Below are positions 8,658 through 11,340 of a stretch of DNA of 64,000 nucleotides, piece by piece. Position numbers and translations under genes: made by a program. The notes under the pieces were generated by a model. The model saw only the letters and a list, made by a program, of their open reading frames with translations. It had not been told where the DNA came from and made no database searches. Numbering within the stretch: position 1 is the first letter of the stretch; every line of letters starts with the position of its first letter. The stretch comes from Pseudobdellovibrionaceae bacterium (GTDB taxonomy: Bacteria; Bdellovibrionota; Bdellovibrionia; Bdellovibrionales; Bdellovibrionaceae), in NCBI GenBank assembly GCA_030158485.1, contig JAOASS010000015.1, positions 61,324-125,323 of the forward strand. Direction: 5' to 3'.

Positions 8658-9761
8658 TCAAATTCTCATCGGCATAACAACGCATGTGTATTCATCATCG
8701 TTATGTTGTTTTATTAAACCTGGTGATAGTTGATCATTCAATTCAAGATCAACTATGTCCTGATCCATGCTCATTAAAACATCGGTTATGTATTTTGCGT
8801 TAAAGCCAATTTTAATATCTTGGCCTTTGTAATTTACTTCTATTTCTTCTTTTGCATCACCAAGTTCTGGATTTTGAGAAGATATTTCCATTTTTCCGTT
8901 ACTGAATATAAACTGTACAGCTTTTGATTTTTGATTTGCCAAAAGCGCTACTCGTTCAAGTGATTGTAAAAATATTTGTCTTGGTAAATTTAATTTAAGA
9001 GGAAGTTTTGCAGGAATAAACTGTTGGTAGTTTGGATATTTACCTTCTATCAAACGAATCATTAAAACAGCAGATTCGCTTTTCATAATGAACTGCGATC
9101 CTTCTATCGCTACTTGTACGGTTCCCTGATGACTTTCCAATATTTTTTTAATTTCGTACAAACCTTTTCTGGGAATGATTACTCCTTGCATAACAGGAGT
9201 TTCAATCGATTCAATTTTTTTATTTATTAAACTCATTCGATGACCGTCAGTTGCAACCATTCGAAGTCCGTTTTTACTAATTTCGAAAAAGACTCCGTTC
9301 AAGTGGTAACGTGTTTCATCATTCGAAACACTGTAAATTGTTTTATCGATCATTTCTTTTAAAGTTTGAGCTTCGATCTTGTTGAAAGACTGTGGATTGT
9401 ATGTTGGAAAAACGGGGTAATCTTCAGAGCTAACTCCAATAATTTTAGATACGTATTTTCCTTGTTTAATCTGAAGCCAATTATTTTCTTTTTTAGTAAG
9501 TTGAATGGGACCGTCTGAAAGTTTTTTCGCAATTTCAAATAAATTTTTAGCACTGACTGCAACCTTCCCTGATTGAATAACTTGTGCGTTAACCTCATCA
9601 GTAAGACTTACTTCTAAATCTGTTGCAAAGACTTTTAATTTTTTTTGATCTGCATCTAAAAGCACATTTACTAACACGGGCATCGTGTTTCTTTTCTCAA
9701 CTATGTTTTGAGTTTTACCGATCAATTGTAGTAAGTCTTTTTTATCTATCTCTATATTCAT
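8658..9761 (-). CDS. dnaN: DNA polymerase III beta sliding clamp
   Basis: This ring-shaped processivity clamp tethers polymerase III to DNA. The 367-aa protein matches the family along its length, including ATDGHRMSL in the middle domain and the C-terminal ending YTCVVMPMRI. The start is ATG at 9759-9761. The only upstream Shine-Dalgarno candidate is a weak GAGA, and the AT-rich segment spanning the start is probably part of the origin unwinding region. Confidence 0.97.
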   Translation of the reverse strand: MNIEIDKKDLLQLIGKTQNIVEKRNTMPVLVNVLLDADQKKLKVFATDLEVSLTDEVNAQVIQSGKVAVSAKNLFEIAKKLSDGPIQLTKKENNWLQIKQGKYVSKIIGVSSEDYPVFPTYNPQSFNKIEAQTLKEMIDKTIYSVSNDETRYHLNGVFFEISKNGLRMVATDGHRMSLINKKIESIETPVMQGVIIPRKGLYEIKKILESHQGTVQVAIEGSQFIMKSESAVLMIRLIEGKYPNYQQFIPAKLPLKLNLPRQIFLQSLERVALLANQKSKAVQFIFSNGKMEISSQNPELGDAKEEIEVNYKGQDIKIGFNAKYITDVLMSMDQDIVDLELNDQLSPGLIKQHNDDEYTCVVMPMRI

Positions 9762-9971
9762 ATATATCTCGTATTAGTAGTAGGGGCGTGGAAAACCTAT
9801 CAAAGTACTTAAGTAATTGTAAATATTAAATAAGTCCTGTGGAAAAACACCCCGCGTAACTTTCCTGAAGCCAAGGCATTTTGTGGATTACCGCAAGTCA
9901 CATTTTTATAAATATCTAATCCACATGAGTATCCACAATCCACATTCACACCCCTGTGATATTGTGGATTC
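9740..9971. other. oriC: Chromosomal replication origin (oriC) with DnaA boxes
   Basis: The gap between dnaA and dnaN holds seven sites of the form NN(A/T)TCCAC(A). Plus-oriented sites are 9917-9925 (TAATCCACA), 9929-9937 (GTATCCACA) and 9936-9944 (CAATCCACA, overlapping the previous by 2 bp). Minus-oriented sites are 9787-9795 (TTTTCCACG), 9838-9846 (TTTTCCACA), 9882-9890 (TAATCCACA) and 9963-9971 (GAATCCACA, inside the dnaA 3' end). An AT-rich stretch lies at about 9798-9836 and another runs across the dnaN start. The gap on the other side of dnaA (11341-11594) has no comparable cluster. The location agrees with the dnaA-dnaN origins of many bacteria. Confidence 0.85.
9775..9795 (-). promoter_or_regulatory. 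DnaA-trio-like origin unwinding module
   Basis: Read on the minus strand, a DnaA box (TTTTCCACG, 9795-9787) is followed by a CCC spacer, three CTA triplets (9783-9775) and then AT-rich DNA leading into the dnaN start. This is the order of the basal unwinding element known from Bacillus subtilis: a DnaA box, a GC cluster, trios that carry DnaA onto one strand, and the melting region. The role is inferred from layout alone. Confidence 0.55.
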
Positions 9972-11340
9972 TAGTAGCTAACTCTTCAATATCCTTAAAA
10001 ATATCTTGATCATTCGATTGTAGATGATGAACACGCTGTATTGCGTTCATCACAGTTGTATGATCCCGTCCACCGAAAGCTTTGCCGATATCAACTAGGG
10101 ATTTATCTAAGAATTTTTTTATTAAATACATAGCAATTTGACGTGGCACTACAATTTGTTTTGCTCGGGCGCTGGATTTAAGATCACAAAGCTTGATTTC
10201 AAAGTGATCTGTCACGATTCTTTGGATTTCTTCTACACTGATCGTCGCTTGTGTTTCGTGTTGAGCTAGCACCCTTTTAACGAGGTCATAATTGATTTCT
10301 AGGCCTTGAAGTTCAGAAAACATTTTAATTTTCTTAAGGTTTCCTTCGAGTTCTCGGATTGATCTCTTTGAAATTTTTGCGACATACGTGACAACATCTT
10401 CTGAAATCCTAAGACCTAATTTTTCCGCTTTGTATCGAAGAATTGCTATCCTGGTTTCAACATCTGGCATTGTGATATCGGCAATTAAACCGCGCTCTAA
10501 ACGAGTTCTATTACGGTCTTCTATATTCAAAATATCTTTTGGCATTCGATCGCTTGCGACGATAACCTGTTTTTTCAAGTCTATGAACGTGTTGATAATG
10601 TGAAAGAACTCGTTTTGAGTGGCTTCCCCTTTACCTATATACTGAATGTCGTCGACCAACAGAACATCTGTGCTGTCTCTGTATTTTAGTCGAAACTTAT
10701 CCATTTGATGATGTCTCATTGCAGCAATACATTCATTTAAAAAACGCTCAAATGAAATGTAAGTAATTCTAAGGTGGGGAGAAGATTCCCTAATATGATT
10801 TCCAGCTGCGTGCAAAAGGTGAGTTTTGCCCATTCCAACAGGTCCAAATATGAAAAGTGGATTGTAGTCATCTGCACCCGGATTTCTTGCAACATTATAA
10901 CAGGCCGCATGCGCAAACTCAGAATTTTTGCCCACTACAAAAGTAGAAAACGACATTTCATTGTTCAAGGGATCCGATTGAGTTCGAGTGTCTTTATAGA
11001 CTGGATAAGCAGCCGGCTGAGTTTTACTAAAAGCTTCTTCCAAAGCTTGTGGGCTTTCTGGAGGCAATGGCAGTGCTTGGCCAGTAATAACAAACTCAAC
11101 CTCAAAAGGAGATTTGTAACTATCTGAAATTTCTGCAATTATTTTATCCTGTAAATTTTCCACAACATAATATTGATGAAGCGGATTGGGCACACCTAAA
11201 ATAAAGCGGAGCCTATCTTGAGTCACTTTACTTTCAACGAATTGGATCGGATCAAGCCAAGTTGACAGGGACTTATTACTTAGGTTCCGCCCTTTCATTT
11301 GAATTTTGATCTGATCCCAGTACGAACTGTTAACTTCCAC
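9946..11340 (-). CDS. dnaA: Chromosomal replication initiator DnaA
   Basis: DnaA binds oriC and melts it. The 464-aa protein has the AAA+ domain with Walker A GPVGMGKTHLLHA and Walker B VLLVDDIQYIG. The C-terminal DNA-binding domain carries the signature GGRDHTTVMNAIQRV. The N-terminal domain I is followed by a Pro-rich linker at about residues 90-130. The start is GTG at 11338-11340, supported by AGAGGGG 8 bases upstream. It is divergent from rpmH, with 254 bp between them, and its 3' end contains a DnaA box. Confidence 0.98.
   Translation of the reverse strand: MEVNSSYWDQIKIQMKGRNLSNKSLSTWLDPIQFVESKVTQDRLRFILGVPNPLHQYYVVENLQDKIIAEISDSYKSPFEVEFVITGQALPLPPESPQALEEAFSKTQPAAYPVYKDTRTQSDPLNNEMSFSTFVVGKNSEFAHAACYNVARNPGADDYNPLFIFGPVGMGKTHLLHAAGNHIRESSPHLRITYISFERFLNECIAAMRHHQMDKFRLKYRDSTDVLLVDDIQYIGKGEATQNEFFHIINTFIDLKKQVIVASDRMPKDILNIEDRNRTRLERGLIADITMPDVETRIAILRYKAEKLGLRISEDVVTYVAKISKRSIRELEGNLKKIKMFSELQGLEINYDLVKRVLAQHETQATISVEEIQRIVTDHFEIKLCDLKSSARAKQIVVPRQIAMYLIKKFLDKSLVDIGKAFGGRDHTTVMNAIQRVHHLQSNDQDIFKDIEELATRIHNITGV

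Follow-up and report, generated by a model that had tools for sequence, protein, structure and literature searches.

The 64,000-nucleotide stretch of DNA analyzed here (the window) belongs to a Bdellovibrionaceae draft genome (G000), a relative of predatory Bdellovibrio. Its minus strand carries, in this order, dnaA, dnaN, recF, gyrB, and gyrA. The dnaA gene (9946 to 11340, minus strand; TIGR00362, 454.4 bits) encodes the initiator, and dnaN (8658 to 9761, minus strand; TIGR00663, 316.7 bits), whose ATG lies at 9761 to 9759, encodes the sliding clamp. The intergenic region between them (9762 to 9945, minus strand), the predicted core of oriC, measures 184 bp, while 205 to 250 bp is usual across the family. 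The GC skew switches sign at this gap, which agrees with the expectation for an origin. A scan of the window for RNA elements and tRNAs found none. Judged from its sequence features, the locus is very probably the chromosomal oriC with a working DnaA-trio module.

Five perfect copies of the DnaA box consensus NN(A/T)TCCACA were found within the gap: TTTTCCACA at 9838 to 9846 and TAATCCACA at 9882 to 9890 on the minus strand, and TAATCCACA at 9917 to 9925, GTATCCACA at 9929 to 9937, and CAATCCACA at 9936 to 9944 on the plus strand. A sixth, GAATCCACA (9963 to 9971, minus strand), lies inside the dnaA 3′ end. An earlier note on this DNA had counted six such boxes toward dnaA, two of them overlapping by 2 bp; the number and the overlap (9929 to 9937 with 9936 to 9944) are both correct, while only five of the six are in the gap. 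Next to the trios is the box proximal to the DNA unwinding element (DUE), TTTTCCACG (9787 to 9795, minus strand), which ends in G, has two mismatches to TTATCCACA, and is TTWTCMACG-like in relatives. A weak box with one mismatch, ACATTCACA, covers the dnaA stop codon (9942 to 9950, plus strand) and is kept in most of the family. Box-like words with one mismatch allowed are not enriched across the window (52 found versus 49 expected); the signal lies in the cluster and its register. In the listed family members, the box positions relative to the dnaA stop are constant to 1 to 2 bp. The boxes over the stop and in the dnaA 3′ end (9942 to 9971) occupy the same sites in most of the family, and the end of dnaA would thus also be origin DNA. 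A terminator-like hairpin on the plus strand (9880 to 9897) overlaps the box at 9882 to 9890 and probably results from the box sequence itself.

On the minus strand, the proximal box is followed by a CCC spacer (9784 to 9786), a GC cluster whose GC-rich character is kept in most relatives, then by the DnaA-trio array CTA CTA CTA ATA CGA (9769 to 9783), and finally by a putative AT-rich DUE (9731 to 9768). The three CTA triplets pointed out earlier are all present (9783 to 9775), although the array is best read as five triplets. The bound plus strand reads 5′-TCG-TAT-TAG-TAG-TAG-3′, with C, A, A, A, and A as middle bases. Beyond the CTA run, the minus strand continues with ATACGAGATATAT up to the dnaN ATG, which leaves 7 bp between the fifth triplet and the start codon. 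The published search rule for the basal unwinding system (BUS), which is widespread, asks for a box with at most two mismatches to TTATCCACA, located 0 to 16 bp away from at least three NAN triplets in a row (PMC8287927). Here, the box TTTTCCACG is separated by 3 bp from four NAN triplets and one NCN on the bound strand, and box, spacer, trios, and AT-rich DNA stand in the same order and orientation as in BUS.

DnaA was aligned to the B. subtilis structure 8BTG, with the base-capturing residues taken from PMC10721633; E198, N202, I205, M208, R217, and E244 correspond to B. subtilis E183, N187, I190, I193, R202, and E228, and the base-capturing ISM residues are therefore kept except for the I193-to-M208 replacement. 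A DciA helicase loader is also encoded in the genome. Element order, strand, conservation, and DnaA residues all agree with the proposal of the earlier note that this is an oriC whose unwinding module is a BUS of the B. subtilis type.

We compared 151 genomes in total. The main comparison included 93 genomes of the order, from 10 families, obtained by whole-genome searches. Once the patterns had been noted, 30 more class members and 28 genomes from other classes were retrieved as a held-out set. Runs of at least three exact CTA triplets occur in 64 of the 93 gaps, whereas dinucleotide shuffling of the gaps yields them in ~0.1% of cases. The five-triplet array is present in most of the 93 genomes ~163 bp past the dnaA stop, and the lack of CTA conservation that the earlier note named as a refutation is therefore not observed; its start lies 160 to 166 bp past the stop in nearly all of them, and its distance to the dnaN ATG ranges from 7 to ~200 bp. 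In the held-out set, a clear array was found in 28 of 30 class members and 22 of 28 members of other classes. Of the 28 held-out class members with such an array, most keep the 163-bp register; it does not hold in the other classes of the phylum, whose gaps are longer. Conservation of the module spans the order, and the module can still be recognized throughout the phylum. The anatomy of the locus, its conservation, its register, the pattern of base changes, and the conserved DnaA residues are direct observations. Four small genomes of the same order (G115, G113, G126, and G124; 1.4 to 2.0 Mb) have an unclear, degenerate, or displaced trio array in the dnaA-dnaN gap, and their origins may have decayed or been relocated.

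The middle C of the fifth triplet is informative with regard to how trios are read. Cryo-EM and mutants of the B. subtilis system showed that the middle trio base needs an exocyclic amino group, and a middle C works in vitro nearly as well as A; the authors left open whether a middle C is used naturally, and considered that homologues might read other sequences (PMC10721633). We counted base changes as parsimony events on a DnaA+DnaN tree, and the P values below are hence approximate. On the displayed strand, the middle-base changes are T>G in 24 cases, T>A in 8, and T>C in 1. The main change is thus A>C on the DnaA-bound strand. At ordinary gap positions of the Bdellovibrio-like genus, T>G accounts for only 10 of 67 changes (P = 1.4e-13 for the trio excess), and at conserved columns with a T majority for 44 of 194 (P = 1.5e-9); the first and third triplet positions do not show the T>G excess. 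Counted as cells and not as events, the middle bases in the other classes of the phylum include 16 G, 3 A, and 1 C, and those in the held-out class members 6 G, 4 A, and no C. Fewer than three NAN in a row were found in 29 genomes with a clear array, 18 of which have A or C at all five middle positions; several close relatives break the three-NAN rule yet hold N(A/C)N throughout. Triplet 3 is the exception. It accounts for five of the eight T>A changes, and its middle base is often T on the bound strand (G020, G023, G050, G073, G077, G083, G084, and G121), which counts against the amino-group rule and is not predicted by it. As a whole, the A-to-C pattern fits the amino-group rule of B. subtilis and suggests that the trio letter code accepts A or C and is thereby less strict than the usual search rules. 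The substitution pattern would then be natural evidence for the use of middle cytosines by origins, and an N(A/C)N search would recover origins passed over by a (.A.){3,} search (18 genomes here).

The putative DUE includes the dnaN ATG and the first codons, ATG AAT ATA GAG ATA GAT. The ATG lies 7 bp past the fifth triplet in G000, its congener G001, and G008 from another genus, and only in these three of the genomes examined, all of them drafts. Most genomes have 26 bp or more between the trios and the ATG, and the AT-rich element precedes the dnaN leader. The corresponding gap is 60 bp in G010, the sister of G008, and 62 bp in G002, which belongs to the genus of G000; the compaction therefore arose at least twice. 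The 38 bp after the trios, mostly coding in the short-gap genomes, have a dG of −37.2 here versus −38.1 ± 2.5 in 90 relatives, and the three short-gap genomes, with −37.2, −39.2, and −39.4, are as weak as the long-gap relatives. Of 76 gene starts, 98.7% are more stable than the dnaN start region here, and the dnaN start regions of the short-gap genomes are less stable than 98.5 to 100% of the sampled gene starts. All six early dnaN isoleucine codons of the three short-gap genomes are ATA, compared with 28 of 116 in the other genomes. We consider it fairly likely from these figures that the melting zone coincides with the dnaN start and that ATA codons keep this DNA weak.

The short gap might instead be a lineage accident with no role in melting, in which the ATA codons simply follow the AT-richness of gene starts. 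The layout occurs in only three genomes, AT-rich starts are common, and 40% of the isoleucine codons at gene positions 2 to 6 of G000 are ATA (codon backgrounds were taken from 20-kb stretches). G008 argues in the other direction: it acquired the layout independently, and ATA makes up 1.0% of isoleucine codons in its sampled stretch, yet both early dnaN isoleucine codons are ATA. With the bias of 6 out of 6 and the low stability of the start regions also counting against it, an accident is possible but the more doubtful explanation. A coding DUE would offer a natural example of one stretch of DNA serving both as origin element and as coding start. An in-frame ATG is visible 39 bp upstream in G008, where dnaN could start earlier. 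No strong Shine-Dalgarno sequence is visible before dnaN in the G000 sequence; the GAG at 9770 to 9768, partly in triplet 5, may serve as one.

The suggestion that melting runs into the dnaN start is partly supported: the weak DNA after the trios is the dnaN start in this genome, a layout shared by only three of the genomes examined. Its corollary, that opening regulates dnaN via the ribosome-binding site, is not supported, since that site acts in RNA and not in a melted duplex. A link between initiation and clamp expression as a general design was likewise rejected on the distances given above: the overlap is a lineage-specific compaction.

Upstream of the trios, we found a second conserved element. 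In E. coli, the IHF site sits in the interval from the DUE-proximal DnaA box to its neighbor. At the equivalent place here, ~39 bp upstream of the first trio, lies the IHF-like site TTACAATTACTTA (9810 to 9822, minus strand) with the core CA-N5-TTA; an IHF-assisted origin of the E. coli type would have the IHF consensus WATCAANNNNTTR in this interval. The site matches 7 of the 9 specified positions of WATCARNNNNTTR, and the full 9 of 9 is reached at this position in some relatives. CA and TT are the core elements kept in E. coli IHF sites (PMC10380432). The conserved element, W-W-W-C-A-R-N4-T-T-R, keeps a constant position of about −39 relative to the first trio. Of the 93 genomes, 91 have its TTR at −30 to −28 relative to the trio (mean 17.6 and maximum 53 at other offsets), and 59 have the CA-N5-TT core (control mean 3.1, maximum 28). 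In the held-out genomes, TTR is present in 25 of 28 class members and 20 of 22 members of other classes, while the CA core is weaker (11 and 9, near the control maxima). The genome encodes four proteins of the HU/IHF family, one of which is clearly IHF alpha (143.9, against an NCBIfam cut-off of 111); the best beta candidate scores 98.8, below its cut-off of 115. On this basis, the chances are about even that an IHF/HU-type protein introduces a bend in the interval flanked by the two DUE-side boxes. The constant distance from the dnaA stop to the trios, taken together with the IHF-like core, suggests an E. coli-style bend joined to a B. subtilis-style trio opener.

Some of the conservation in this part of the gap could be transcriptional. 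From 9787 to 9823, a TTTACA...TGnTAGGTTTTCC arrangement is conserved in the Bdellovibrio-like genera, and its parts are mostly absent together elsewhere. This TTTACA...TTA...TGnTAGG pattern beside the trios may be a dnaN promoter, with its −10 element touching the proximal DnaA box. TTTACA and TAGG co-occur (both in 28 genomes, neither in 60, mixed in 5), and their spacing is about that of an extended −10 promoter. The co-loss, however, comes down to only three independent starred pairs and has no phylogenetic support, and outside the Bdellovibrio-like genera TAGG is lost while CA-N5-TTR stays. A sigma-70 consensus scan gave three weak matches, near the shuffle level and none at TTTACA/TAGG, and a search of the available papers found none on dnaN transcription starts in Bdellovibrio. 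We regard the promoter as unlikely, and it would in any case be compatible with the origin reading. That opening starts in the AT-rich 9798 to 9836 stretch between the DUE-side boxes, with the CTA run as a spacer or helper, is very improbable: within this gap, the weakest 20-mer of all does lie there (~9814 to 9833) and not past the trios, and an annotated trio of Thermotoga maritima can be non-essential and so supportive at most (PMC10316083), but the least stable 20-mer starts 16 to 17 bp past the first-trio start in the close relatives checked (G001, G002, G007, G008, and G010), the stretch carries the conserved IHF-like element instead, and the DnaA of B. bacteriovorus opens one end of its origin, within the predicted AT-rich, trio-bearing DUE (PMC5124646).

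Returning to the trio module as the opener, we infer that DnaA binding, DNA bending, and strand opening take place at the gap in the following way. DnaA would fill the box array, a scaffold with rigid spacing relative to the dnaA stop, and an IHF/HU-type protein would bend the stretch that separates the two DUE-side boxes. DnaA at 9787 to 9795 would then load a DnaA filament onto the plus strand over the triplets at 9783 to 9769. The filament would capture the bases of triplets in which the middle one is expected to bear an amino group (A, or C in triplet 5), and it would stretch and open the AT-rich DNA past the trios. With the leader lost in this genome, the opening zone would be the dnaN start itself, kept weak by its ATA codons. 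A more far-reaching reading would have trios read in nature as N(A/C)N and not as NAN, whole lineages of the phylum using mixed A/C arrays together with an IHF-type bend fixed 39 bp upstream, and, in at least two lineages, a melting element moved into the dnaN frame with codons tuned for easy opening; we put this at slightly less than an even prospect.

Overall, this is an ordinary origin and an informative variant. The BUS reading is right, and it was already known for the close relative B. bacteriovorus, for which trios, a DUE, and origin binding and in vitro unwinding by DnaA were reported in 2016 (Makowski et al., PMC5124646). Beyond prior knowledge, the comparison suggests three things: an A/C letter rule that operates in nature, an IHF-like core locked in position, and a coding DUE. 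The B. bacteriovorus origin (BdoriC) shares with the present locus the gene order, the location in the dnaA-dnaN gap, the NN(A/T)TCCACA consensus, trios close to box 1 and separated from it by a short GC-rich spacer, an AT-rich DUE, and boxes in the dnaA 3′ end, its intragenic boxes 7 and 8 being the counterpart of the box at 9963 to 9971 (PMC5124646). It differs in having a separate AT-rich DUE and dnaN leader in a gap of 232 bp, whereas the DUE here enters the dnaN codons in a gap of 184 bp; in addition, no IHF-like site was described for BdoriC (PMC5124646). The B. subtilis BUS (PMC6669920, PMC8287927, PMC10721633) has the same box, GC spacer, 5′-TAG-3′ trios, and AT-rich DNA, and a DnaA with the base-capturing residues, but it uses a tandem pair of proximal boxes, while the present origin has a single proximal box, a middle C in triplet 5, an IHF-like site upstream, and a DciA loader. 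E. coli oriC likewise has a CA...TT IHF-like core between the DUE-proximal and the next DnaA box (PMC10380432), but its DUE motifs are of the 13-mer/TT type, whereas the origin described here combines a clear trio array with an IHF-like site predicted from sequence.
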